From Pseudomonas mendocina (GTDB taxonomy: Bacteria > Pseudomonadota > Gammaproteobacteria > Pseudomonadales > Pseudomonadaceae): a stretch of 64,000 nucleotides of DNA. The position numbers and the translations under genes were made by a program. The stretch lies in the NCBI RefSeq assembly GCF_003008615.1, contig NZ_CP027657.1, forward strand, positions 4,836,001-4,900,000. The letters run 5' to 3'. Positions 1 through 25,462 of this stretch are shown here, piece after piece. Under the pieces are notes generated by a model. It ran no database searches. It was not told where the DNA came from and saw only the letters and a program-made list of their open reading frames with translations. Every line of letters begins with the position of its first letter. The first letter of the stretch is position 1.

Positions 1-1522
1 GGTGCTGCTCGCGGATGGCCTGGCGGATCTGCCCGTGGTTGAGGTCGCTGCAGCCGCAGATGGCCTTCTCGCTCTTGGGTTTGACGTCTGCTGCGCCTCC
101 GACGGTGCTGATCAGGATCTGCTCGACCAGGCCGGTGCAGGAGCCGCAGGAACTGGCGGCCTTGGTGTGCTTCTTGACCTCGTCGACCGAGAACAGGCCG
201 TTCTCCTGGATCGCCTTGACGATGGTGCCCTTGCATACGCCGTTGCAGCCGCAGACTTCCATGCTATCGGGCATGTTGGCGGTCTTGTCCGCGCCCTGGT
301 GGCCGACGTCGCCGATGGCGCCTTCTCCGAACATCAGATGGTCGCGAATCTCGCTGACGTTGTGACCCTCGCGGATCTGGCGGAAGTACCAGCCGCCGTC
401 GGCGGTGTCGCCGTAGAGGCAGGCGCCGACCAGCACGTCGTCCTTGATCACCAGCTTCTTGTACACGCCACCGATGGGGTCGGAGAGGGTGATGGTTTCG
501 CTGCCTTCGCTGCCCATGAAGTCGCCAGCGGAGAACAGGTCTATGCCGGTGACCTTGAGCTTGGTGGAGGTCACCGAGCCCTGATAGCGCGAATAGCCAA
601 GCTGGGCCAGGTGGTTGGCGCAGACCTTGGCCTGCTCGAACAGCGGCGCCACCAGGCCGTAGGCGATGCCGCGATGACTGGCGCATTCGCCGATGGCGTA
701 GATGCGCGGATCGAAGGTCTGCAGCGTGTCGTTGACCAGAATGCCGCGGTTGCAGGCGATGCCGGCGCGCTCGGCCAGTTCGCTGTTGGGGCGGATGCCG
801 GCGGCCATCACCACCAGGTCGGCCGGGATCACCTCGCCGTCCTTGAATTTCACCGCGCAGACACGACCCTCGCCATTGTCCAGCAGCTCGGCGGTGTGTT
901 TGGGCAGGAGGAACTTCAGGCCGCGATCTGCCAAGGATTTCTGCAGTAGCTCACCGGCGGTGCGGTCGAGCTGACGCTCCAGCAGCCAGTCGCCGATGTG
1001 CACCACGGTCACGTCCATGCCGCGCAGTTTGAGGCCGTTAGCCGCCTCCAGGCCGAGCAGGCCGCCGCCGATGACCACGGCATGCTTGTGAGTCTTGGCA
1101 GTGTCCATCATCGCCCGCGTGTCGGCGATGTCGCGGTAGCCGATCACTCCGGTCAGATCCTTACCGGGGACGGGCAGGATGAAGGGCGTGGAGCCGGTGG
1201 CGATCAACAGGCGGTCGTACTCGGCTTCGCTGCCATCGTCGGCGATCACGCGGCGCGCCTTGCGGTCGATCTTCACCACCGTGCGCCCGAGCAGCAGCTT
1301 GACGCCGTTTTCGGTATACCAGTTGAGGTCGTTGAGGATGATGTCCTCGAATGCCTGCTCACCGGCCAGTACCGGCGAGAGCAGGATACGGTTGTAGTTG
1401 GGGTGTGGCTCGGCGCCGAACACGGTGATGTCGTACAGATCGGGAGCGAGCTTGAGCAGCTCTTCGAGGGTGCGCACACCCGCCATACCGTTGCCGATCA
1501 TCACCAGCTTGAGTTTTTGCAT
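1..1522 (-). CDS. nirB: Assimilatory nitrite reductase [NAD(P)H] large subunit, N-terminal 507 codons
   Basis: Reduces nitrite to ammonium in the cytoplasm with NAD(P)H, FAD, Fe-S and siroheme. The visible part starts MQKLKLVMIGNGMAG at an ATG at 1520-1522, with the FAD-binding glycine motif at residues 10-15, then a second nucleotide-binding stretch (IGGGLLGLEAA), then two BFD-like [2Fe-2S] segments with CGCNGVC and SSCGSC. The siroheme half lies beyond base 1, so the gene is cut by the window edge and not broken. It sits behind a sigma-54-type promoter and an ANTAR-type attenuated leader, so expression should need both nitrogen limitation and nitrate/nitrite. Identification is firm from the continuous reading frame and motif order. 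Confidence 0.96.
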   Translation of the reverse strand, partial: MQKLKLVMIGNGMAGVRTLEELLKLAPDLYDITVFGAEPHPNYNRILLSPVLAGEQAFEDIILNDLNWYTENGVKLLLGRTVVKIDRKARRVIADDGSEAEYDRLLIATGSTPFILPVPGKDLTGVIGYRDIADTRAMMDTAKTHKHAVVIGGGLLGLEAANGLKLRGMDVTVVHIGDWLLERQLDRTAGELLQKSLADRGLKFLLPKHTAELLDNGEGRVCAVKFKDGEVIPADLVVMAAGIRPNSELAERAGIACNRGILVNDTLQTFDPRIYAIGECASHRGIAYGLVAPLFEQAKVCANHLAQLGYSRYQGSVTSTKLKVTGIDLFSAGDFMGSEGSETITLSDPIGGVYKKLVIKDDVLVGACLYGDTADGGWYFRQIREGHNVSEIRDHLMFGEGAIGDVGHQGADKTANMPDSMEVCGCNGVCKGTIVKAIQENGLFSVDEVKKHTKAASSCGSCTGLVEQILISTVGGAADVKPKSEKAICGCSDLNHGQIRQAIREQH

Positions 1523-5061: not shown

Positions 5062-6345
5062 TCAGGCTTTGATGACAAAGGAATCGGCGTAGACGGCCGG
5101 GTTGCTGCCGTCCCAGACCACACCGTCGATCAGCGTGCTGCTGCGCAGCGGGCTGCTCGGCACTGCCAGTTTCAGCGCACTGGCGGCCTCGGCGTAGAGC
5201 GCTGTCTGATTGATCTGCGCGGCGACTGCCACATAGTCCGGCGCCTCCTTGAGCAGGCCCCAGCGCTTGAACTGGGTGAGGAACCACATGCCGTCGGAGT
5301 GGTAGGGGAAGTTGACGCTGCCGTCCTTGCAGAAGGCCATGGCGTGCTCGTCCTTCCAGCTGTTGCCGAGGCCGTCCTCGTACTGGGCGAGGAAGCGCGG
5401 TTCGATCACCTGTACCGGTGCGTTGACGTAGGCCTTGCCGGAAATCAGCTTGGCGGTGCTCTTGCGGTTCTCCTCGCTGGCCTCGATGAAACGGCTGGCG
5501 TCGAGAATGGCCATGATCAGTGCGCGGGCGGCGTTGGGATACTGCTCGATAAAGGCGCGGGTGGTGCCCAGCACCTTCTCCGGGTGATCCGGCCAGATCT
5601 GCTGGGTGGTGGTGGCGGTGAAGCCGATCTTGTCGAAGATCGCCCGTGCGCCCCAGGGCTCGCCGACACAGAAGCCATCCATGTTGCCGACACGCATGTT
5701 GGCCACCATCTGCGGCGGCGGCACGACGATGGTCTTCACGTCGCTCATCGGGTTGATGCCGACACTGGCCAGCCAGTAATATAGCCACATGGCGTGAGTG
5801 CCGGTGGGGAAGGTCTGGGCGAAAGTCAGCGGGTTGCCGCCTTTCTTGACGTGCTCGGCCAGTTGCGCGCCATTGGTGACACCCGCTTCGCGCAGTTGCC
5901 TGGAAAGGGTGATGGCCTGGCCGTTCTGGTTCAGGCCCATTAATACGGCCATATCCCTCTGCGGGCCAGCCAGACCTAGCTGGGCACCGTACATCATGCC
6001 GTAGAGCACGTGGGCCGCATCCAGCTCACCGGTGTTGAGCTTGTCACGCACACCGGCCCAGGACGCCTCCTTGCTCGGGGTGATGCTCAGACCGTACTTC
6101 TCGCCGAAGCCCTGCGTTGCCGCGACTACCACCGAGGCGCAATCGGTCAGCGGGATGAAACCCACTTTCAGCGCAGCCTTTTCCGGGGCATCGGAACCAG
6201 CTGCCCAGGCAGCGCTACGCAGCGAGGCCGGTGCCGAGAGCCCGAGGGCGGCGATACCGCCGAGTGCGCCGGCCATGGCGATGGATTGCTTGAGGAAGTT
6301 GCGGCGGCTGCTGTCGACGGTCTTTTTCGAATCACGATCGGTCAT
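5062..6345 (-). CDS. nrtA: Nitrate ABC transporter substrate-binding protein, Tat-exported
   Basis: A 427-aa periplasmic nitrate/nitrite-binding protein. The N-terminus has a twin-arginine signal (SSRRNFLKQS at about residues 12-21) and then a hydrophobic Ala/Gly-rich stretch ending near AWA. The body matches NrtA/NasF, including KVGFIPLTDCASVVVAA and the conserved VGEPWGARA region. First gene of the importer operon, preceded by a sigma-54-type promoter and an ANTAR-type leader, so it should be controlled like nirB. Confidence 0.95.
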   Translation of the reverse strand: MTDRDSKKTVDSSRRNFLKQSIAMAGALGGIAALGLSAPASLRSAAWAAGSDAPEKAALKVGFIPLTDCASVVVAATQGFGEKYGLSITPSKEASWAGVRDKLNTGELDAAHVLYGMMYGAQLGLAGPQRDMAVLMGLNQNGQAITLSRQLREAGVTNGAQLAEHVKKGGNPLTFAQTFPTGTHAMWLYYWLASVGINPMSDVKTIVVPPPQMVANMRVGNMDGFCVGEPWGARAIFDKIGFTATTTQQIWPDHPEKVLGTTRAFIEQYPNAARALIMAILDASRFIEASEENRKSTAKLISGKAYVNAPVQVIEPRFLAQYEDGLGNSWKDEHAMAFCKDGSVNFPYHSDGMWFLTQFKRWGLLKEAPDYVAVAAQINQTALYAEAASALKLAVPSSPLRSSTLIDGVVWDGSNPAVYADSFVIKA

Positions 6346-6375
6346 GGGCTGATCTCTTTATTCGGGGCATAAAAA

Positions 6376-6430
6376 AACGGCGTACGTCGGATCACCTCGA
6401 TGGGAGGAAGGTGATCGGACGGACGCCGTT
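6376..6430 (-). terminator. Attenuator hairpin in the nrtA leader
   Basis: On the minus strand the outer stem AACGGCG/CGCCGTT and the inner stem GATCACC/GGTGATC enclose a 12-nt loop and are followed by a run of seven T. It ends about 30 bp before the nrtA start codon. Its 5' arm overlaps the second hexaloop hairpin (6420-6435), so the two structures exclude each other. Confidence 0.88.
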
Positions 6431-6464
6431 GTCCGTGATCCTCGGCCCGCCGCCGTTGGCGTGC
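6420..6464 (-). promoter_or_regulatory. Tandem hexaloop hairpins (ANTAR/NasT-type binding site) in nrtA leader
   Basis: First hairpin 6464-6445: stem GCACGCC/GGCGGGC with one A.G mismatch, loop AACGGC. Second hairpin 6435-6420: stem CGGAC/GTCCG, loop AACGGC. The loops are identical and have A1 and G4 as required for ANTAR recognition. Binding would hold the second hairpin and disrupt the terminator it overlaps. Confidence 0.78.
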
Positions 6465-6488
6465 TACGCAGGATGCTTGCTGTGATCT

Positions 6489-6504
6489 AGCAAGTGGCTT
6501 GCCA
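6489..6504 (-). promoter_or_regulatory. Sigma-54 (-24/-12) promoter candidate for nrtA
   Basis: Minus-strand TGGCAAGCCACTTGCT fits TGGCACG-N4-TTGCW with one mismatch and the required 10-nt spacing between GG and GC. Predicted start near 6478, immediately ahead of the hexaloop hairpins. Confidence 0.65.
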
Positions 6505-6684
6505 GTTCTGGTTTGGGATGCCTCTGCCTTGGGCCGATAACCCGCCGCGCATTATCGGCAGGCCTTCTTGAGGTGCTTGCTGCCTGCTAGAGACAGGGAT
6601 GTAGCCTGAACCGATGCGCATCGTTATGGGCCAATGTCGTGCACCGCTCTGCCTTGCTGAGCTTTTTTGGGTCGGATGGTACTT

Positions 6685-6999
6685 CTACGAGGCTGGCTGG
6701 ATATGCGCCTCTTCGACAAAGTCACGCAACCAGCGCAGCACCTCCACTGCCTCCCAGCGGGCTGGATCGAACAGTGCGTAGGCGAGTCCCTGATAACCGA
6801 CCACATCCAGTTGCCGGTGATAGCCCGCACGCTGCAAAAGCGCCTCGATCTCGGCGAAACAGCTGTTGAAGTGCTGGCGATTGAACGGAGTGCGACTCTC
6901 GGTAACGATGCCTTCGAGCAGCAGCTCATCGACCATCTCGCGCACGCGCTCCAGCGGCATGCGGTTCACTCGGTGTTTCAGCTGCAGTACGTCCAGCAT
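6685..6999 (-). CDS. Conserved-looking hypothetical protein, LexA-box neighbour
   Basis: 104 aa, soluble, no signal or membrane segment; begins MLDVLQLKHRVNRMPLER and contains a mostly helical, Leu/Glu-rich fold. No family recognised. A GGAGCGCC sequence precedes the ATG at 6999. Its promoter region, shared with the divergent lipoprotein gene, carries a good LexA box at 7056-7071, about 57-72 bp upstream, so SOS control is likely for one or both. An overlapping ORF at 6624-6929 in another frame is judged a shadow. Confidence 0.65.
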   Translation of the reverse strand: MLDVLQLKHRVNRMPLERVREMVDELLLEGIVTESRTPFNRQHFNSCFAEIEALLQRAGYHRQLDVVGYQGLAYALFDPARWEAVEVLRWLRDFVEEAHIQPAS

Positions 7000-7653: not shown

Positions 7654-8343
7654 TTACATCAGGTGCTGCTTGTCGGTCTCGATGGCTGCATCAAGAGTCT
7701 CCAGCAGTGCCTTGCGCACCTTCAGCTTGGTGTTCTTGTGCGCGGTCATGTTGATCTTCTTCATCTGCTGCGCCACGGCCTGGGCGGTTGCCAGCAGCTG
7801 TTCGGCCGGCACTATCTTATCCAGGAAGCCGGCATCTACCGCGCCTGCAGGGTCGAACATCTCGCCATTGATCACCGAGCGGTGGAATGCCGACTTGCGC
7901 AGACGATCACGTGCTAGCTCGATACCCACATGGTGCATGGTCATCCCGATCTGCACTTCGTTCAGGCCGATGTTGAAGGGGCCCTCGACGCCGATGCGGT
8001 AATCGGCCGACAGCAGAATGAAAGCGCCTTTGGCCACGGCATGGCCGGGGCAAGCGACGATGATCGGGTAGGGGTGGGCGAGCATGCGGCGCGCCAGGGT
8101 CGAGCCGGCAGCCACCAGATTGATTGCATTCTGCGGGCCGGAGGTCATCACCTTCAGGTCGTATCCGCCGGAGAGAATACCCGGCTGCCCGGTGATGATG
8201 ACAATGGCGCGATCCTGCTCCGCACGATCGAGCGCGGCATTGAATGCGGCGATCACGTCGGGCGAGATAGCGTTGACCTTGCCATTGCTCAGGGTAAGGG
8301 TGGCGATGCCGTCTTCGAGTTGGTAGCTGATCAGGTCGCTCAT
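7654..8343 (-). CDS. Crotonase/enoyl-CoA hydratase-isomerase family protein
   Basis: 229-aa crotonase-fold enzyme acting on an acyl-CoA substrate in the cytoplasm. The oxyanion-hole segments are visible: SGGYDLK (first) and AVAKGAFILLSADYRIG (second). The usual catalytic Glu pair of hydratases is not evident in the second half (GLNEVQIGMTM carries one Glu), so hydratase, isomerase or other crotonase chemistry cannot be decided. It is slightly shorter than classical EchA (about 260 aa). Monocistronic, ending at the bidirectional terminator. Confidence 0.9.
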   Translation of the reverse strand: MSDLISYQLEDGIATLTLSNGKVNAISPDVIAAFNAALDRAEQDRAIVIITGQPGILSGGYDLKVMTSGPQNAINLVAAGSTLARRMLAHPYPIIVACPGHAVAKGAFILLSADYRIGVEGPFNIGLNEVQIGMTMHHVGIELARDRLRKSAFHRSVINGEMFDPAGAVDAGFLDKIVPAEQLLATAQAVAQQMKKINMTAHKNTKLKVRKALLETLDAAIETDKQHLM

Positions 8344-8529
8344 GGCAGTTTTCCTTGTTAGAGCCGTGGGGCCGAATGTGGGCAGAAGGTACTCAGCCGA
8401 ATCGCTCTGGTAAAGCGCCGCGACTGACCGGTGAGTCAGTGTTTTTGCCTATCGCGGCCATGTCGTATGGCAATTGGCCGAATGCAAAACCTGGGCTTTA
8501 AGGTGAGCAGCGTACCGAAGGAGCTGCTC

Positions 8530-8748
8530 ATGAATATCTTCTATTCCATCCTTTATACGGCTGCGGTGATTGGCCTGCTGCTGGTGTCGGTTCTGCTCAG
8601 CGAAATCCTTGCCCTGCGTAGCCCATCCGGCGTGCTACTGCTATTTGGCATAGGCTTGTTCACGTCCCTAGGGTTTCTGCTATTCGGTCATATACGCTTC
8701 GACGAGCAGCCCTGCGAGGAGCCCGACGAAAACCCGCTGCGCTCTTAA
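8530..8748 (+). CDS. Small inner-membrane protein, unknown function
   Basis: 72 aa with two predicted membrane helices ([20 protein letters not shown] and [20 protein letters not shown]) and an acidic C-terminal tail. A GAAGGAG site just before the ATG at 8530 chooses this start over an upstream one at 8431. No family recognised. Lies immediately upstream of the tRNA-Ser promoter. Confidence 0.75.
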
Positions 8749-8838: not shown

Positions 8839-8928
8839 GGTGAAGTGTCCGAGCGGTTGAAGGAGCACGCCTGGAAAGTGTGTATACGGGAAACCGTATC
8901 AAGAGTTCGAATCTCTTCTTCACCGCCA
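8839..8928 (+). tRNA. tRNA-Ser(GGA)
   Basis: Acceptor stem GGTGAAG/CTTCACC, anticodon loop CTGGAAA with anticodon GGA (reads UCC/UCU), the long variable arm typical of serine tRNAs (TACGGGAAACCGTA), T-arm AGAGTTCGAATCTCT, discriminator G and encoded CCA at 8926-8928. Its last 24 nt are the left end of the prophage attachment repeat, so the tRNA remained intact after integration. Confidence 0.97.
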
Positions 8929-8987
8929 CTTTCGCAATACCTAAAGCCCTGAAAGCTAACAAGTTTTCGGGGCTTTTTGCTTTCTGG
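8905..8987 (+). repeat. attL: 83-bp direct repeat at tRNA 3' end
   Basis: Identical to 23117-23199 over 83 bp. It covers the T-arm to CCA of tRNA-Ser and the downstream tRNA terminator (AAAGCCC ... GGGGCTTTTT). This is the host-phage core shared by both ends, so the exact crossover lies inside it. Confidence 0.95.
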
Positions 8988-9018: not shown

Positions 9019-9092
9019 GCCAGCTTTCTGTCTTTCAGACGTGCCGCTTCTTGTTTCAGAATGCCAGCTCCATGGACGTGAGGCGGATCAGG

Positions 9093-9803
9093 ATGCGGGT
9101 CAATTACGTATTTATCGACTACGAGAATGTGCAGGCTACATCGCTACGCTTGCTGCAGCCGGAGCATTTCAAGCTGCGTGTTTTTCTCGGGCCGAATAAT
9201 TCGAAGCTGCCCACTGACCTTGTGACTGCAATCCATCGGCTTCATGAGCGAGCTGAGTACATCCAGATGGATACGCCGGGCACTAACGCTCTGGATTTCC
9301 ATATCACGTACTACCTAGGTGTTTTGTCGGCGGCGGATCCAGTTGGTTACTACCACATAATCTCCAAAGACAAAGGCTTTGATCCGTTGATCAAGCATCT
9401 GAAATCGAAGGGACTCACGGTTGTTAGATCAGAGAGCATCGAGCAAATGCCTTGCTTCGCTGCGACTGTTGTTGCGCCTAACCCGCCTCAGAAGGCCGCT
9501 ACGCCAAATCCACCAAAACCTGCGCCTAGCCAGCCTAAAAAGCCTGAGCCGGCAAAGGCCTCGCCATCAAAAGCGACGGATAAGAACCAAGATGCTCTTA
9601 TCAAGCTGGTAGTCGCAGATCTGATCGCCAGGAAGGCTTCGAAGCCGCGAACGATAAAAACGTTGATGAACACCATTCATTCCAAGCTCGGCAAAGACCG
9701 CGCTCTTAGTGAGATAGAGCAGATCTACAAGGTCATGCGTCAGCGAGGCCTGGTGAAAGAGGCTGGTACGAAGGTGTCTTACGCGCTACCGAGTGGGAAA
9801 TAA
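9093..9803 (+). CDS. NYN/PIN-like (LabA-type) putative RNase, prophage cargo
   Basis: 236 aa. The N-terminal half begins [12 protein letters not shown], with acidic residues as in the NYN subgroup of PIN-fold nucleases, followed by a conserved [11 protein letters not shown] acidic motif and [16 protein letters not shown] (third metal-binding Asp). A Pro/Lys/Ala-rich linker (about residues 135-165) leads to a C-terminal helical domain resembling a winged helix ([12 protein letters not shown]...RGLVKEAG). The start at 9093 is chosen because an AGGCGG precedes it; ATG 9072 is an alternative. Lies between attL and the integrase gene, converging with it with an 18-bp overlap. Probably a lysogenic-conversion (possibly antiviral) gene; the activity is inferred. 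Confidence 0.8.
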
Positions 9804-18450: not shown

Positions 18451-18720
18451 ATGATCGAGGAAAGGCTTAGAACCCTAGTGAGGCACATAGGGGCCACGAA
18501 GCTGGCTGAGGCCACTACGATCAAGGAACGCCAGCGGTGGCAGACTGTGGCGACCAATCGGAAGGTGAAGACCCGGATCGAGGATCTAGAGGAGCTTCTG
18601 AAGGTATTTCCTCAATACGAGTTGTGGTTGTGGAGGGGAGAGGTAGACCCTGCAAAAGGCCAGGTGTCACCTGGCTACGAAGAGGCCGATTCAAACTTGC
18701 CCGATCAAAGCGCGGGATAG
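18451..18720 (+). CDS. Repressor-like small DNA-binding protein of the prophage
   Basis: 89 aa; MIEERLRTLVRHIGATKLAEATTIKERQRWQTVATNRK resembles an HTH (helix LVRHIGATKLAEA, recognition helix around RQRWQTVATN) followed by a helical dimerisation region ending DLEELLKVFPQYELWLWRGE. Divergent to the lytic operon and next to palindromic sites, the expected place for the immunity (C-type) repressor of a Pf-like phage. Role inferred from position. Confidence 0.7.
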   Translation: MIEERLRTLVRHIGATKLAEATTIKERQRWQTVATNRKVKTRIEDLEELLKVFPQYELWLWRGEVDPAKGQVSPGYEEADSNLPDQSAG

Positions 18721-18778
18721 CGATCACAACGGAAATAGCTAGGCGCTGGTACGCCCGAAAAATTTAGCTGGAGATTTT

Positions 18779-20380
18779 ATGAGCAAGGATATTGATAAGG
18801 CTGCATCTGAAAGTATATGTCTTGAAGATCTTATGGAGGCTCTTTCATATTATGTTCCTACCGGGACGGCTGAGGGGGAGCGGTACATACTGCAGGAAGC
18901 ATTTGTTCAGACGCATGAGTATGCAGACATTATTGCGCCTCCTATTGGAAGCCCAAGGCTGCTGATAGGGAAGAAAGGCTCTGGAAAGAGTGCTATTTTA
19001 GACTTTACCATGCGCTTTTTAACTGATGCAAAAATACCAGGCCTGCTAATAAAGCCATTAAATCTCGATCTATCCTCTATGAAAGAAAATGGATCGTCGG
19101 GGGAGCTGACAAGAGTTGCATATGAGCAACTGATGCAGTCTATTGCTGTTGCGATAGGTCAGCAGCTCCCCATGATGGTCGATGAATCAAATAGAGTACT
19201 ACTTGAAGCGGCAGTAAATTCAGGTGTGCGGGAAGTGGATTTTGTTTCTAAATTTACGCGCGCACTCAATTCTTTTTCAAAGCCGTTCACTGGCTATGAT
19301 TTTTCTAAATTGCTCCCTTCTTCGATGCCCGCCAGCCGTTTAAGACTGGAGAGAGCTGTTCGTCGAAATATAGATGCTTCGGGTTCCGCATTTTATGTGC
19401 TTCTTGATGACACTGATCAGGTTGCAAACCCTGGTACGAAAAATCACCTAAATAGAATATGGGCTTGCATTCTTGCAGCTCGTGAAATAACGCAACAGAA
19501 TAATAAAATTAGGTTTGTAATATCTTTGAGGGATGAGGTTTGGCGTTCCCTAGAGAAAGAAGGTACCGCGCAGAGAGATCAAATAGATCACTTTTTACCA
19601 TTGGTTTACAGGCTAAATCCAAGTTTAGATCATGTGCAGCGCATTATAGAAAAAAGACTAATACTTGCTGCCGCACGTGCGGGATTTGAGTCAGAACTTC
19701 CGCATTATGAACTATTTTTTGAGGGTGATAGCCCTAGAATGCCAAATAGTGAAAAATTAAGTAGCTGGCCCGATATTATTAGGTCTCGATCAAGAGAAAG
19801 ACCACGTGATGCTGTCCAGTTTGTAGGGCAAATGGTTAGCGTTGCATTGGAAGGCGAGGCAAAAAAAATCGATGACAATATTTTGTCGAGAATTATGCCG
19901 AACTATTCTCGGGAAAGAGCCGGACTGGTTGCAGGGGAGTATGGAGCTGAATGCCCAGAGCTTCTTACGGTTATTCGGTCATTTTCAAAGGTAAATTATG
20001 CGCATGGATCATTTTTGGCCGACTCTGAAACAATCCGGAAACACCTGAGTGCAATTCAAGGCGCTTTAACAATAACCATAAACGGGATTGCGCTAAAATC
20101 GGGCTCTGATGATGATGTATTCAAGATATGGTCACTTCTTTTTGAGGCCGGCTTTTTCTATCCCCGCGTTTCAGATAATAGAGAGAAAGATGGGTATCGA
20201 TTTGTGCTTCCAAGCGATGAGCCTGATCTGGTATGCAAGAAAAGGTGGAATGATATCCAGCAAGCGTTGTGGGAGGTGCATCCGGTATTTAGGGATTTCT
20301 TGATTGAGGATCAGAAAGAGCATGCTGCTCGCTTTGGCCTTCCAGTTAAGCCCAAAAAACCTAGGAAGGGTTTTCGTTAG
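18779..20380 (+). CDS. P-loop ATPase (Sll1717-like family), prophage cargo
   Basis: 533 aa. Walker A GKKGSGKS at residues 64-71 and a Walker B-like FYVLLDDTDQ near 206-215, with a sensor-like FVISLRDEVW after it, mark an AAA/STAND-type ATPase; the N-terminal lead and the long helical C-terminal part resemble the Sll1717 family of P-loop ATPases. AT-rich codon use, unlike the phage core, shows separate origin. It follows the repressor gene by 58 bp, same strand, and precedes three membrane-protein genes. Homologues are often found in defence-gene contexts (general knowledge), so an anti-phage or superinfection role is inferred; no toxic effector domain is recognised in it. Confidence 0.8.
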   Translation: MSKDIDKAASESICLEDLMEALSYYVPTGTAEGERYILQEAFVQTHEYADIIAPPIGSPRLLIGKKGSGKSAILDFTMRFLTDAKIPGLLIKPLNLDLSSMKENGSSGELTRVAYEQLMQSIAVAIGQQLPMMVDESNRVLLEAAVNSGVREVDFVSKFTRALNSFSKPFTGYDFSKLLPSSMPASRLRLERAVRRNIDASGSAFYVLLDDTDQVANPGTKNHLNRIWACILAAREITQQNNKIRFVISLRDEVWRSLEKEGTAQRDQIDHFLPLVYRLNPSLDHVQRIIEKRLILAAARAGFESELPHYELFFEGDSPRMPNSEKLSSWPDIIRSRSRERPRDAVQFVGQMVSVALEGEAKKIDDNILSRIMPNYSRERAGLVAGEYGAECPELLTVIRSFSKVNYAHGSFLADSETIRKHLSAIQGALTITINGIALKSGSDDDVFKIWSLLFEAGFFYPRVSDNREKDGYRFVLPSDEPDLVCKKRWNDIQQALWEVHPVFRDFLIEDQKEHAARFGLPVKPKKPRKGFR

Positions 20381-20438
20381 ATTAGATATAGAAGCTCGAC
20401 AAGGCATATTTATTTTCTGATGCATGCAAGGATGCAAT

Positions 20439-20654
20439 ATGAAATCCGACTGTGAAGACGCACCAGACTATCTACGCAACAAGAAAAAGCCCGGCCCATG
20501 GCGAATGGTGGCCATCCTGGGCGTGGGTTCCGCGATTACCTGGGGCGTGATCGCGATGTTTGCCAAGCCAATCGTGATCGACGTTGATCAGCTCAAGCAG
20601 GCGATCCACGTAGACGGCAAACCGCTACCGGGCAGACAAATCAGTTTTACCTAA
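20439..20654 (+). CDS. Small membrane protein, paralogous N-terminus with the next gene
   Basis: 71 aa from ATG 20439. N-terminal MKSDCEDAPDYLRNKKKPG, one membrane helix (VAILGVGSAITWGVIAMFA), short periplasmic tail. The opening MKxDxxDAP...K pattern and the following helix are repeated in the gene that starts 16 bp after its stop, indicating an old tandem duplication. Not recognised. Confidence 0.65.
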   Translation: MKSDCEDAPDYLRNKKKPGPWRMVAILGVGSAITWGVIAMFAKPIVIDVDQLKQAIHVDGKPLPGRQISFT

Positions 20655-20669
20655 GTGCAAGGAGGCATG

Positions 20670-21362
20670 ATGAAAGCCGACTGGGATGATGCACCTCGCC
20701 ATATGCAATCAAAAGGCAAGGGCACGGATATAGCGAGATGGATATTTTCTGGCCTGGCTGGCTGTGCAATTACCTTTGGTATCTTGTATTTCGCTAGCGG
20801 GAACCTGAATGGCGGGCTATTCAAGTCTAAGCCTGTGCCTACTGAGCCTGAATCCTACTCTCGCTACGAACCGCTGGAAGAGATTGCTCCCCCGCAAAAG
20901 ACCTCAGAGCAAATATTCTGGGAGAACGTCGAGGCTGACAACCGCAGGCAGGCGGCTTTGAATGCAGAGAAACAGAACGTATTCAATGACAATAATTACC
21001 AGCCCAAGCGAGTAGAAAACACCTATAGCCCGCCGACTTACCAGCAGGCTGCCTCCAGTCAATCACAAACAACCCGCGTTCAACGAGAGCGTGACGGCTA
21101 CTGGATTGACAAGTGGAGCGGCGGTGCACGGTACTACGCCGAGTGGGAAATCGTGAACAACTACATCGAAGGCACCAGCGTATGCGCCAACCATCGCCGG
21201 GGTTCCATCGACTATCGCGAGTGCCGCAAGGGCGCGAAACAGTTCTTCAAAGAACAATGTAAAGGCTGGAGCGGGCGCTACAGAAGTGACCGTAAAGCCT
21301 GGAGCGACCGCATGAAGCAGCGCTATTGCTCAGCGGCTAGCAACTTTAATCCGATGGGATAG
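20670..21362 (+). CDS. Membrane-anchored protein with Cys-containing C-terminal domain
   Basis: 230 aa from ATG 20670, 4 nt after AAGGAGG (ATG 20667 is also possible). MKADWDDAPRHMQSKGKG, one membrane helix (IFSGLAGCAITFGILYFA), a Pro/Gln-rich linker, then a C-terminal domain of about 95 residues (YWIDKWSGGARYYAEWEIVNN onward) with four Cys that could pair in the periplasm. No family recognised. Codon use is nearer the core than that of the ATPase gene. Confidence 0.7.
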   Translation: MKADWDDAPRHMQSKGKGTDIARWIFSGLAGCAITFGILYFASGNLNGGLFKSKPVPTEPESYSRYEPLEEIAPPQKTSEQIFWENVEADNRRQAALNAEKQNVFNDNNYQPKRVENTYSPPTYQQAASSQSQTTRVQRERDGYWIDKWSGGARYYAEWEIVNNYIEGTSVCANHRRGSIDYRECRKGAKQFFKEQCKGWSGRYRSDRKAWSDRMKQRYCSAASNFNPMG

Positions 21363-21366
21363 CTTA

Positions 21367-22065
21367 ATGTTGATATTTGGGTGTGTTTTAACTGCTGTAT
21401 GGTTGGTAGGGTTGGGGGTGGCTGTTTATTTGAATATAGATAAAGCCGCGTCAATGGAGTTGAATTCGTGGGGGGATTTTTTAGCAGGTGGATTTGCCCC
21501 TCTAGCATTCTTTTGGTTGGTTATAGGTTATTTTCAGCAGGGTAGAGAATTAAAACTAAGCACTAAGGCTTTAGAGAAGCAAGAAGAAGCCTTGAAGTTA
21601 CAGGTTGAGGAGCTAAGGTCGTCTGTTGAACAACAAAAGGAACTGGTCAAGGCTGCTAGGGAAGAGATGGAAATGACTAGATCCGAAATTGAGCGCGAGA
21701 GAATAAAGGATAAGTTGAATGCTCAGCCATATCCAGAAATGTCCCAGACAGGGATGGATGAGCATTTAGGAGTTGTTAAGTATGTTGTTCAGTTGGCTAA
21801 CTCTGGCGCAGGAGTTACTAATGTGGAACTTGTGGAGAAAAATCTGGAGTGTGACGTGGTTCTATCTCAGGATCATAGAACTATGCGATGGGCAAAGGGG
21901 ATGGACATAAGGTTTGACTTTAGTCTTCCTGTTGAGAGCAGGCTTAAGCCGAGTGAGAGATATGCGTTCGTTATCTCATTTACGGATGCTTTAGGGGATA
22001 AGGAGCAGTTGCAGTTGAACTTTGTAGTGAATAATGGTGGTAGGTTCATTCATTCTAAGTTTTAA
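21367..22065 (+). CDS. Membrane protein with coiled coil and C-terminal beta-rich domain
   Basis: 232 aa. Two N-terminal membrane helices (about residues 2-22 and 38-57), a strong coiled coil at about 62-118 (LEKQEEALKLQVEELRSS...), then a hydrophilic domain of about 110 residues. Strongly AT-rich. It starts 4 bp after the preceding stop, so it is coupled with it. The layout (2 TM, coiled coil, cytoplasmic sensor-like domain) resembles uncharacterised membrane proteins found beside defence ATPases, but no family is recognised. Confidence 0.7.
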   Translation: MLIFGCVLTAVWLVGLGVAVYLNIDKAASMELNSWGDFLAGGFAPLAFFWLVIGYFQQGRELKLSTKALEKQEEALKLQVEELRSSVEQQKELVKAAREEMEMTRSEIERERIKDKLNAQPYPEMSQTGMDEHLGVVKYVVQLANSGAGVTNVELVEKNLECDVVLSQDHRTMRWAKGMDIRFDFSLPVESRLKPSERYAFVISFTDALGDKEQLQLNFVVNNGGRFIHSKF

Positions 22066-22151: not shown

Positions 22152-22469
22152 CTATGCGCTGAGCCAACTTGGAATATCTTTCATATCATGCAAAACACGC
22201 CAAACATCAATATGACTTTCTTGCTCGACATAGAACACAAGGTAGGGATAGCGCCGGAGTGGCCATGAGCGTAGGCCGGGCAGATCCAGTTCGTGCGCGT
22301 AGCGAGTCGAACCGGAAGCGGGGTGGCGGCTGATCTGCTTGTAAGCACGCTCCAGGGCGTCAACGAAGCCTAGCGCGGCTTTCTCGGCCTGTTCTTCGAG
22401 GTAGTAGGTAATGGCGTTGTCTACGTCTCGGGTAGCTAGCTCACGTGGGATGATGGGTTTTTGCTTCAT
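22152..22469 (-). CDS. parE: ParE-type toxin (RelE/ParE superfamily)
   Basis: 105 aa; the pattern EQAEKAALGFVDALERAYKQISRHPASGSTRYAH then LPGLRSWPLRRYPYLVFYVEQ is the ParE core, ending in the usual IDVWRVLHDMKD. ParE toxins poison DNA gyrase. Overlaps the antitoxin gene by ATGA. In Pf phages a ParE/ParD-like pair (PfiT/PfiA) stabilises the prophage, and this pair may do the same. Confidence 0.92.
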   Translation of the reverse strand: MKQKPIIPRELATRDVDNAITYYLEEQAEKAALGFVDALERAYKQISRHPASGSTRYAHELDLPGLRSWPLRRYPYLVFYVEQESHIDVWRVLHDMKDIPSWLSA

Positions 22470-22702
22470 CCTTGAGCGTTCCGCACGCGAGCACGGAGCG
22501 ATTCGAAGTAGTCAGCATCGGCAGGGACGGCGGGAGCGGATGCAGCACCAGCAAGCAGCAGGCCACGCAGGTGTTGGCGGTCTTGATCCTTACGAATCAG
22601 TTCGCGGACGTATTCGCTGCTGGTGCCGTAACCGCGCTGGTTTACTTGCTCATCAACGAAGCTTTTGAGAGTGTCCGGCAGGGAGATATTCATGGTGCTC
22701 AT
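22466..22702 (-). CDS. parD: ParD-type antitoxin (ribbon-helix-helix)
   Basis: 78 aa; MNISLPDTLKSFVDEQVNQRGYGTSSEYVRELIRKDQ is the ParD ribbon-helix-helix with the C-terminal toxin-binding tail. First gene of the pair and probable autorepressor. Start MSTMNIS at 22702; MNIS at 22693 is possible. Confidence 0.92.
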   Translation of the reverse strand: MSTMNISLPDTLKSFVDEQVNQRGYGTSSEYVRELIRKDQDRQHLRGLLLAGAASAPAVPADADYFESLRARVRNAQG

Positions 22703-22789
22703 TGGGCGTGCCTCTTGCCAAATTTTGCCAAATTCTACACCCGTTGGCTTGGTTCATGGAATGATGGCCGTTCATGTGCAGAGGTGCCT

Positions 22790-22993
22790 ATGAAGTGTCC
22801 TGTTTGCGGTAGCGCGGATCTGGTGCGGGAAAAGCGAGATATGCCGTTCACCTACAGGGAGCAGACAACGGTTATCACCGAGGTCGGCGCCGACTGGTGC
22901 AATGCTTGCGGGGAGGCATTGACTGACCCGGAGCAGAGCGAAAGGGTGATGGCTGCGATTAAGCGTTTTCGGCTACAGGTCGATGCAGGCTAG
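22790..22993 (+). CDS. MqsA/YgiT-type zinc-finger protein lacking the HTH domain
   Basis: 67 aa. MKCPVCGSADLVREKRDMPFTYREQTTVI and DWCNACGEALTDPEQSERVM carry the two CxxC pairs of the MqsA N-terminal zinc domain. MqsA proteins are about 130 aa and continue into an HTH; here the frame stops right after RFRLQVDAG, 7 bp before the phage end repeat. No MqsR partner is adjacent. Either a remnant cut by phage-end recombination or a stand-alone small zinc protein. Confidence 0.75.
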   Translation: MKCPVCGSADLVREKRDMPFTYREQTTVITEVGADWCNACGEALTDPEQSERVMAAIKRFRLQVDAG

Positions 22994-23116: not shown

Positions 23117-23199
23117 GTTCGAATCTCTTCTTCACCGCCACTTTCGCAATACCTAAAGCCCTGAAAGCTAACAAGTTTTCGGGGCTTTTTGCTTTCTGG
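23117..23199 (+). repeat. attR: 83-bp direct repeat
   Basis: Exact copy of 8905-8987 (tRNA-Ser 3' end plus terminator). Marks the right boundary of the prophage; chromosomal sequence resumes after it. Confidence 0.95.
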
Positions 23200-23394
23200 T
23201 CTTTCTCTCTTCTGATCTTTCTCAAGCTCGGCCACCTGCCGGTTCGTCTTTCCATGGCCTACGCGCCGCTTCACCGTTCCCTGGTGCAGTCATTGGCAAT
23301 ATCCATGGTCACTATCGAAAGCACTGATTTCTGTCTGGTGAGGCATCGGCCTAATGTTGACCTCAACGCAGATTGAGTTGGATTGGAGGTCGTG

Positions 23395-23601
23395 ATGTCC
23401 CGTATCGATGTGGTTTCCCTGGTCGGTAGCGCCGTACCGGCTGAGCTCAGATCCGATGGTCATATGGCGTGCTGGCTGCTGATGGTCGATGGTCAACCCA
23501 AAGCCGGCCCCTTCGCTTCCCGTGAGGCTGCGCTGGCCTGCCAAGCCGTCTGGCTGCTTAGCAGCGCTGTTCGCCGTGAGGGCGATTCGCTGCTGGCCTG
23601 A
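23395..23601 (+). CDS. Small hypothetical protein
   Basis: 68 aa from ATG 23395, chosen because TTGGAGG precedes it. Contains HMACWLLMVDGQPKAGPFASREAALACQAVWLL; soluble, no family recognised. Before integration it would have lain directly after the tRNA-Ser gene. Followed by a terminator. Confidence 0.7.
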   Translation: MSRIDVVSLVGSAVPAELRSDGHMACWLLMVDGQPKAGPFASREAALACQAVWLLSSAVRREGDSLLA

Positions 23602-23641
23602 TTCACCGTTTTACTCCGCGCTCGCTCCAGCGCTCCCCTTG

Positions 23642-23663
23642 GCCCGCCTCTGGCGGGCTTTTT
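23642..23663 (+). terminator. Intrinsic terminator
   Basis: GCCCGCC-TCT-GGCGGGC followed by TTTTTC, between the small gene and earP. Confidence 0.85.
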
Positions 23664-23709
23664 CTTGTCTGCCGGTTAGAATGGCGATCATTTTTTGAAG
23701 GGGCGTAGC

Positions 23710-24852
23710 GTGGCCAGGTGGGACATCTTCTGCAGCGTAGTGGACAACTACGGCGATATCGGCGTGACCTGGAGACTTGCACAGCAACTGGCGGCCGAGC
23801 AGGGGCATTCGGTGCGCCTGTGGGTCGATGATTTGGCTTCCTTCGTGCGCCTGTGTCCAGCGGCCAGTAGTGATGCTGAGTGCCAGCACTGGCGTGGTGT
23901 CGAAGTCCGCCGCTGGGCGGAGCCGTTCCCCATGCTGGAGCCGGCTGAGGTGGTGATCGAGGCCTTCGCCTGTCAGTTACCGTCTTCATATGTCGCGGCG
24001 ATGACTGCCAGTGGCACCCGGCGCCTCTGGCTGAATCTGGAGTACCTCAGCGCCGAAGATTGGGTCGCGGGCTGCCATGGCTTGCCATCGCCGCAGTCGG
24101 CTGGGTTGCAGAAGTTCTTCTTCTTTCCAGGGTTCGTGGAGGGCACAGGCGGTTTGCTGCGTGAGGCCAATCTGCTGGCGTGTCGACGGACTTTTCAGGC
24201 TGATGTGCAGGCGCAGAACGAATTTCTACGGTCATTCGGTGTGGTGCGTGAAGCGGGTGCGCGACTGATTTCGCTGTTCGCCTACGAGAATGCAGGCCTG
24301 GCTGGCTGGATGGATGCGTTTGCAGCCGACCCTCAATCGACTCAGTTGCTGGTGCCGCAGGGCAAGGTTCTGGCCGATCTGCAGGCCTGGCTGGGTTGCG
24401 CTCCGCTGGAGCCGGGGGATCAGCGGCGGTTCGGCAATCTGCAGATCCATGTGCTGCCTTTCGTTGCGCAGGATGATTATGACCGCCTGCTGTGGTGCTG
24501 CGATCTCAATGCGGTACGCGGCGAAGACTCCTTCATCCGTGCGCAATGGACTGGTCGGCCGCTGCTCTGGCATATCTACCCGCAGGAGGAGGGGGCGCAC
24601 TGGGACAAACTGGACGCTTTTCTGGCGCTTTATAACGCCGATCTGATGGCTGAAGCGGCTGTCGCTCAAGCCGAGTTCTGGCGAGCGTGGAATGCAGGCG
24701 AAGGGATGGAAACGGCCTGGCCTGCGCTTCTCGACGCATGGCCGGCACTGCAACGACATGCCGAGCAGTGGTGTGATCAGCAGGCCGCTCGGGCAGATCT
24801 TGCCACGGCGCTGGAACAGTTTTACCGAAATTGGCTATCATACGCGGCCTAG
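23710..24852 (+). CDS. earP: EF-P arginine rhamnosyltransferase
   Basis: 380 aa from GTG 23710, preceded by GAAGGGG at 7 nt. Begins [21 protein letters not shown], the conserved EarP nucleotide-sugar region with catalytic-loop Asp residues, and contains the family segments [22 protein letters not shown] and [14 protein letters not shown]. EarP transfers rhamnose from dTDP-rhamnose to Arg32 of EF-P, needed to rescue ribosomes at polyproline. It lies directly before efp, as in other pseudomonads. Confidence 0.96.
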
Positions 24853-24886
24853 ATTTCTGTACCTCCCGCATATTTCGGATATCCGC

Positions 24887-25462
24887 ATGAAAACTGCACA
24901 AGAAATGAGAGTCAACAGCGTGGCCCTGATCGATGGCCAGCCGTGGCTGATCCAGAAGGCCGAGTTCACCAAGTCCGGCCGTAACAGCGCCATCGTCAAG
25001 ATGAAGCTGAAGAATCTGCTCAACGGCTCCAAGACCGAGACCGTCTACAAAGCCGACGACAAGATGGAGCCGGTGATTCTCGAGCGCAAGGAAGTGAGCC
25101 TGTCCTACATCAGCGGTGAGGACTATGTGTTCATGGATCCGGAGTACAACTCCTACGAACTGCGTGCCGAAGATCTGGAAAGCGTTCTGCCGTTCATCGA
25201 AGAAGGCATGAGCGATGTCTGCGAAGCCGTGTTCTTCGAAGGCAAAGTGATCTCCGTTGACCTGCCCACCACCATCGTGCGTCAGGTTGTCTATACCGAG
25301 AACGCTGCTCGTGGTGATACCTCCGGTAAGGTGATGAAGCCTGCCAAGCTGCGCAACGGTACCGAGATCAAGGTCGCCGAGTTCGTCGACATCGACGACT
25401 GGATCGAGATCGATACCCGTGACGGTTCCTACAAGGGCCGCACCCAGGCGCCACAAGCCTAA
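24887..25462 (+). CDS. efp: Translation elongation factor P
   Basis: 191 aa from ATG 24887, the usual length, with KOW, OB and C-terminal domains. The modified residue is Arg32 (FTKSGRNSA), the EarP substrate, in place of the Lys of E. coli EF-P. Ends [20 protein letters not shown] strong terminator follows. Confidence 0.98.

Follow-up and report, generated by a model that had tools for sequence, protein, structure and literature searches.

The window analyzed here is a stretch of 64,000 nucleotides from Pseudomonas mendocina (G000, C1:4836001-4900000, within a 5.77-Mb contig). It contains a Pf-like filamentous prophage hosting four genes, all on the + strand, between the phage repressor gene and the right attachment site (attR). 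We refer to the first gene as the ATPase and to the others as P72, P230 and P232 (Table 1). The original prediction had placed four same-strand genes of 533, 71, 230 and 232 amino acids (aa) in this phage cargo position; we confirmed the open reading frames (ORFs), and the location was supported. It had also described the block as an ATPase plus three membrane proteins acting as one system. A hydropathy scan agreed about the membrane proteins, with one transmembrane (TM) region in P72, one in P230, two in P232 and none in the ATPase, whereas the single module did not survive comparison with other loci. That comparison indicates that the block is not one system: the phage's own gene has an independent cargo insertion on either side.

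Table 1. Features of the Pf-like prophage (positions in the window; residue numbers for the protein motifs)
Feature	Position	Strand	Description
ATPase	18779-20380	+	533 aa, Sll1717 family
ATPase motifs	Walker A GKKGSGKS, residues 64-71; DDTDQ, 210-214; QRDQIDH, 265-271; RERPRD, 339-344		conserved in an 18-sequence alignment
P72	20439-20654	+	71 aa, one TM, truncated N-terminal copy of the resident P230-family gene
P230	20670-21362	+	230 aa, phage gene after the repressor, phrog_7381 E 6e-82
P232	21367-22065	+	232 aa, two TM, coiled coil, predicted Ig-like beta-sandwich, phrog_9267 E 3e-32
Cargo cassette 1	about 18760-20406	+	no match to sister phages between conserved borders; ATPase is the sole gene
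Pf-type repressor (CI / repressor C)	18451-18720	+	phrog_147 transcription regulator, E 1.7e-19; upstream border gene, 89 aa as annotated
Conserved -1-frame tail	18690-18767	+	overlaps and passes the repressor stop; left border of the cargo cassette
ParE toxin	22152-22469	-	PF05016 45.2 bits, cut-off 23
ParD antitoxin	22466-22702	-	TIGR02606 52.4 bits, cut-off 46.2; PF03693 23.5, cut-off 21
attL	8905-8987	+	83-nt repeat, over the 3' end of tRNA-Ser(gga)
attR	23117-23199	+	second copy of the 83-nt perfect repeat
tRNA-Ser(gga)	8839-8928		overlapped by attL

Comparison by blastn with 24 sister loci, some of which lacked one or more of the blocks of similarity, marked the borders of the inserted DNA. 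Similarity stopped at about 18750-18762, restarted at about 20406-20428, where it covered the start of P72, and was found again in blocks at about 21132-21365 and from about 23003 to attR. The element reads repressor, slot 1, P230, slot 2, attR; here slot 1 holds a stand-alone Sll1717 ATPase and slot 2 holds P232 plus a ParDE pair. The claim that the ATPase and the last protein are AT-rich and foreign to the phage core was borne out by their GC content and GC content at third codon positions (0.435/0.367 for the ATPase and 0.425/0.433 for P232), compared with 0.58-0.63/0.69-0.80 for int, rep, zot, p3 and ssb. The GC contents of P72 and P230 were 0.546 and 0.530.

The two middle genes had been taken as cargo partners of the ATPase; instead, both represent a gene that belongs to the phage and normally stands behind the repressor. 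The profile phrog_7381 matched P230 over its full length and P72 at its N terminus (E 2e-7). P72 was 66-90% identical to the first 64-68 aa of the P230 proteins in 10 sister loci, whereas the window P230 was 41-55% identical to the same proteins; P72 is therefore a remnant of the beginning of the resident gene, and P230 is another copy of it that is complete. At the DNA level, the P72 region (20426-20626) was 76-94% identical to the sister loci. In the alignment, the P230 family shows an Asp-rich N terminus, one TM region, a linker and a C-terminal domain with four conserved Cys. We found the family in 77 viral contigs, and five phage records encode it; in the three of these examined, P230 follows the repressor with at most one annotated gene between. 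P230 as an effector of the ATPase was ruled out, as it occurs without any such ATPase in 75 of the 77 contigs. A parallel to the P72/P230 arrangement was seen in L303, where two P230-type genes (6155-6868 and 8001-8708) are present and cargo lies between the repressor and the second.

The original prediction likened the block to abortive-infection systems made of a sensor ATPase plus a membrane effector, and it proposed co-occurrence in other prophages as its own test. On such a reading, infection sensed by the ATPase would switch on P232 (or P230) at the membrane. We scanned the 77 viral contigs, chosen by P230 alone, with hidden Markov models and detected an Sll1717 ATPase in two (slot 2 of L266 and slot 1 of L304), P232 in one (slot 2 of L283) and both in none; 17 of the 77 have <500 nt after P230, so some slot-2 genes would have gone unseen. 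Among 398 Pseudomonas genomes, two gave a match to the window ATPase at 1e-10, in each case within a Pf-like prophage, and the sole genome matching both the ATPase and P232 was the window's own. In G327 (L071), the Sll1717 ATPase directly follows P230. P232 lies in slot 2 of G369 (L065) and beside an integrase in G148 (L076), both times without the ATPase; together with L283, these are the three other Pf-like carriers of P232, none of them with the ATPase, and no P232 is present in the sequence covered for L071, L266 and L304, the other Pf-like elements with an Sll1717 ATPase. Outside this setting, we compared 19 ATPase relatives on genome contigs from alpha-, beta- and gammaproteobacteria, Verrucomicrobium, an Omnitrophota metagenome-assembled genome and others. 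No neighbor family recurred in more than three of these loci, and a homologue of P72, P230 or P232 was found in none of the 19 among the ORFs compared (for L106 the ORFs compared lacked the ATPase itself, and the flanks of L103 and L116 are short). The genes are adjacent and on the same strand, the ATPase and P232 are both AT-rich, and the two TM regions, coiled coil and soluble domain of P232 suit an effector, but the phage's own P72/P230 stands between them and the co-occurrence counts (0/77 and 0/19) led us to reject the four-gene module, which we now regard as very improbable.

P232 is best described as a separate, independent prophage gene. It matched phrog_9267, a profile without an attached function, over residues 18-220 (profile 31-228 of 266), and 30 of the 398 Pseudomonas genomes contain a match. 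Its relatives are spread over many prophages with varying neighbors, the commonest neighbor cluster being present in 7 of 22 loci (21 of the 22 were scored, P232 being unpicked in L123). An AlphaFold2 model (predicted local distance difference test score, pLDDT, 90.5; predicted TM-score, pTM, 0.61) combines a TM hairpin with a helix some 87 residues long and an immunoglobulin (Ig)-like domain. P232, which belongs to a large prophage family, could on its own be a membrane protein that acts against phages or excludes superinfection, a tentative but plausible role that is compatible with a solo anti-phage ATPase. In its favor are 210 relatives in viral contigs (of which 80 were kept), integrase-like and other phage-like neighbors, named by eye, in the Pseudomonas loci, and a TM and coiled-coil part that is constant while the C-terminal domain varies. 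Against it, P232 had no PADLOC match (best LeoBC, E 0.02) and no Pfam family above cut-off, and a fold search returned only generic beta-sandwich matches with no informative PDB fold.

The name Sll1717 held for the ATPase, which scored 170.1 bits against NCBIfam NF047389 (cut-off 75), with residues 30-508 aligned to profile positions 5-454 of 454. Its reading frame is intact, as are its Walker A motif and a Walker B-like acidic motif, and G64, K66, G67, G69, K70, D210, D211 and D213 are invariant in the 18 aligned Sll1717 sequences. A STAND/Avs-type multidomain defense ATPase was ruled out, the protein being a single 533-aa chain with no domain above cut-off besides the Sll1717 profile. In a Foldseek search with the AlphaFold2 model (pLDDT 84.7, pTM 0.83), the best match was Cdc6/Orc1 (2qby, E 1.2e-7), followed by BrxC, ORC subunits, RdrA and an NLR; these share an AAA/STAND-type core with the ATPase, but the likeness is weak and we claim no membership. 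One relative, L116, matched orc1/cdc6 weakly (TIGR02928, E 2e-5, below cut-off). The last 25 residues of the window ATPase contain 8 K/R and 3 D/E, and a basic C terminus (8-9 K/R of 25) is shared with its nearest relatives, L102, L103 and L105. The predicted ORC/Cdc6-like fold plus the basic tail hint at DNA binding. Other members of the family, the multidomain Sll1717 ATPases, have the same ATPase core with extra domains that the window protein lacks. In these fusions (L140-L143, L091-L093 and L146), the addition is a TIR/deoxyribosyltransferase-like N terminus, below Pfam cut-offs, or a cold-shock domain, above cut-off in L146. This is the appearance to be expected of a modular ATPase of sensor type.

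Sll1717 ATPases are present in 30 of 283 Pseudomonas genomes and 12 of 369 genomes of the class, and the four Pf-like carriers are the window, G327/L071 (246 bits), L266 (220 bits) and L304 (195 bits). The L071 and L266 ATPases are 32% identical; the L304 protein is nearest L094 (43%), and the window protein is nearest L102 (68%). At least three subfamilies are represented among the ATPases of the Pf-like carriers, an argument for repeated capture. A direct tblastn search with the window ATPase gave no match in 50,697 phage records and two records among plasmids, and two viral-contig scans with it found nothing; the L266 and L304 ATPases surfaced only via P230.

The slots around P230 hold defense genes in other Pf phages. 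Eight defense systems are described in 12 Pf phages in PMC11878078; there and in the record annotations, Gabija directly follows P230 in PfAC02b, and IetAS follows it in PfAC08 with one gene between. These two, located after the repressor and P230, and the Pf6 kinases occupy the same place in the phage as the cargo here, but they belong to other protein families and are named systems. A Pf defense slot is a known kind of place, and what is new is the solo ATPase, which is probably defensive. Of the 77 P230 contigs, 73 have a recognized repressor, and the repressor-P230 gap is <150 nt in 43 of them and at least 400 nt in 30, so that slot 1 is mostly empty and at times filled. In sister Pseudomonas loci, Pfam named 9 of 20 cargo proteins tested above cut-off (two kinases, PLD-like, ApeA, PIN_8, NACHT, AAA_13, which is PADLOC PDC-S06, DUF2971 and Mrr) and PADLOC named 4 of 10. 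Among 101 representatives of viral-contig cargo, matches at 1e-10 were obtained for 200 PADLOC models, the Old, AbiL, AriA and GajA models having three cargo members each. The cargo is very diverse, with 154 ORFs in 123 clusters, on a crude list into which antisense and transposase-like ORFs as well as L315 core genes have entered, and from which the L304 ATPase is missing because the repressor of L304 went unrecognized. The viral contigs are redundant in part, and some represent elements also counted as genome loci (L240 is the contig of L001; one and the same contig underlies L160 and L283), and for L060 and L067, where no repressor was found, the upstream genes are placed in slot 1 by inference only. 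The simple map of repressor, slot 1, P230, slot 2 and attR can guide the search for further cargo.

Such diversity would fit a view of the genes as neutral hitch-hikers, captured by chance and with no selected function here. We consider this improbable, given an ATPase frame that is intact with all family motifs and an excess of Sll1717 ATPases in the cargo: two of about 155 listed ORFs, compared with about 0.003 expected from the genus background if a genome has 5,500 genes and the crude list is taken as it stands.

Two further observations concern the cargo. In L063, a second copy of the repressor-end border (6610-6687) separates two cargo genes of slot 1, which looks like a stacking of cassettes. 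A DUF7946/DUF7947-like protein (below cut-off) and a small membrane protein with a related-looking start form, by eye, a two-gene cargo pair (L065 5155-6665 and L243 8789-10337) that occupies slot 1 in one of these Pf-like phages and slot 2 in the other.

As a role for the ATPase itself, defense is the best guess, because one distant family member also passes an anti-phage model: L100 (G409) scored 396 bits against NF053860 DS41_1_antiphage (cut-off 370) and 112.6 against NF047389 (cut-off 75), which places both it and the window protein in the Sll1717 ATPase family. DS-41 is among the systems protecting Escherichia coli, according to the DefensePredictor report (PMC13092281), and we infer from its name that NF053860 represents that system. 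Likewise, the PADLOC phage-defense candidate PDC-M28C matched the L304 ATPase (E 3e-16), but not the window ATPase, and PDC names denote candidates. Agreeing with the original prediction that no named system is present, none of the four proteins matched any PADLOC-DB 2.0.0 model below E 0.02; Pfam, NCBIfam and PADLOC gave no defense name for P72, P230 or P232, a sequence search for solved relatives gave no sensible match for three of the proteins, and a literature search on the name Sll1717 found no paper. A defense role is a reasonable guess for the ATPase, though not for a four-gene system.

We favor the reading, at a probability of roughly 0.6, that slot 1 of this Pf-like prophage received a stand-alone anti-phage ATPase and slot 2 received P232 and ParDE. 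The ATPase would be made in the lysogen together with the repressor. Its ORC/Cdc6-like AAA+ module, a C-terminal winged-helix-like part and the Lys/Arg-rich tail might sense or bind the nucleic acid of an invading phage, and the protein, using ATP, would then block phage replication or stop the cell without a separate effector gene. The prediction that replaces the tempting four-gene reading is that the ATPase gene acts without its neighbors. Several results weigh against this proposal. A promoter and terminator scan of the region was at background, so a shared transcript is an assumption. The structural matches are distant, with a TM-score <0.4 by query length and 10-14% identity, the charge of the tail varies from 2 to 9 K/R per 25 residues across the 18 sequences, and no effector domain is visible in the ATPase, with no domain besides Sll1717 above cut-off. 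The window ATPase is 14% identical to L100 and fails NF053860, with 24 bits against the cut-off of 370. In L065 and L283, two further Pf-like elements, P230 is again followed by P232, which therefore shows a degree of association with the slot but none with the ATPase.

An alternative is that the ATPase works for the filamentous phage that carries it or against rival Pf phages, through replication control or superinfection exclusion, rather than defending against tailed phages. The predicted ORC/Cdc6-like fold and the location directly after the repressor would suit such a role, and Pf6 accessory kinases control co-resident Pf prophages besides defending (PMC11341870). We nevertheless think it unlikely, as the 19 genome-contig relatives lie in many non-Pf settings and slot 1 is empty in 43 of the 73 contigs with a recognized repressor, meaning that the phage can do without it. 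A defensive solo ATPase would link the large Sll1717 family with an anti-phage protein that has been tested and with a defense slot on a phage outside Pseudomonas aeruginosa.

The left border of the cassette, which takes in the repressor gene's end and about 45 nt beyond it, coincides with a conserved tail in the -1 frame, which may be a more surprising lead than the ATPase. The tail is also found at the same place in L059-L078, L001-L004 and L240-L316. The -1 frame here reads like KL-QSKRGIAIT-EVARRWYAR and continues beyond the repressor stop in 18 of 19 loci, the exception being L065, and the tail is present in 22 of 23 phage records with a repressor match, Pf1 included (E up to 5). A simple tail motif was found in 67 of 73 viral contigs, and three of the six that failed (L261, L294 and L297) show the tail by eye. 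In 32 distinct in-register tails, which were selected for RW in register, differences at the three codon positions numbered 1063, 1106 and 2204, the synonymous share was 0.46 versus 0.07 and 0.12 in the other phases, and there were 0 stops versus 32 and 26; without the register filter, the signal was weaker (687, 545 and 832). Among 61 distinct tail-bearing repressor ends, the open -1 stretch ahead of the stop contains no ATG, GTG or TTG in 52, and 54 finish with GCG GGA TAG. These sequences suggest programmed -1 frameshifting at or near the repressor stop, where GGA could slip to GGG; a restart at ATA could also account for translation of the tail. Frameshifting is not mentioned in the available parts of two papers found for Pf4r (PMC7549136 and PMC8402870). 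If translated, the tail would give the repressor a conserved C terminus absent from the annotated 89-aa protein, changing how Pf lysogeny and superinfection immunity are studied. A broader and doubtful proposal would join these threads: solo ORC/Cdc6-like Sll1717 ATPases as a widespread single-protein immunity, captured at least three times by filamentous phages and acting directly on invading DNA through the winged-helix-like part and basic tail without an effector, with Pf phages keeping these genes in two exchangeable slots around P230, the first bordered by a -1-frameshifted repressor.

The host element has integrase, replication, Zot-like and repressor genes and both attachment sites, all expected of a Pf-like inovirus. 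The phage core matched phrog_197 (E 4e-85), phrog_1159 (E 5e-207), phrog_1 (E 1e-73) and phrog_147, and attL and attR are a perfect 83-nt direct repeat. The repressor position is common to PfAC02b, PfAC05 and PfAC08. As in Pf phages, a ParDE toxin-antitoxin pair is present (22152-22702), with both partners above their family cut-offs. Just before attR lies an MqsA-like antitoxin fragment, named by eye (22772-22993), without an MqsR gene; a longer MqsA-like form with a companion gene is present in L062. Between attL and the integrase, a PIN7-domain gene (about 9090-9803, +; PF18475 100.9 bits, cut-off 34) marks the attL-integrase interval as a third cargo position, and a P232 relative can occupy the same interval (L076). 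The tRNA-Ser(gga) integration site (window 8839-8987, 23117-25462) is adjoined by earP/efp-like genes, named by eye, and the DNA similarity of L062, L063, L066 and L068 extends into this flank, indicating that they share this integration site.

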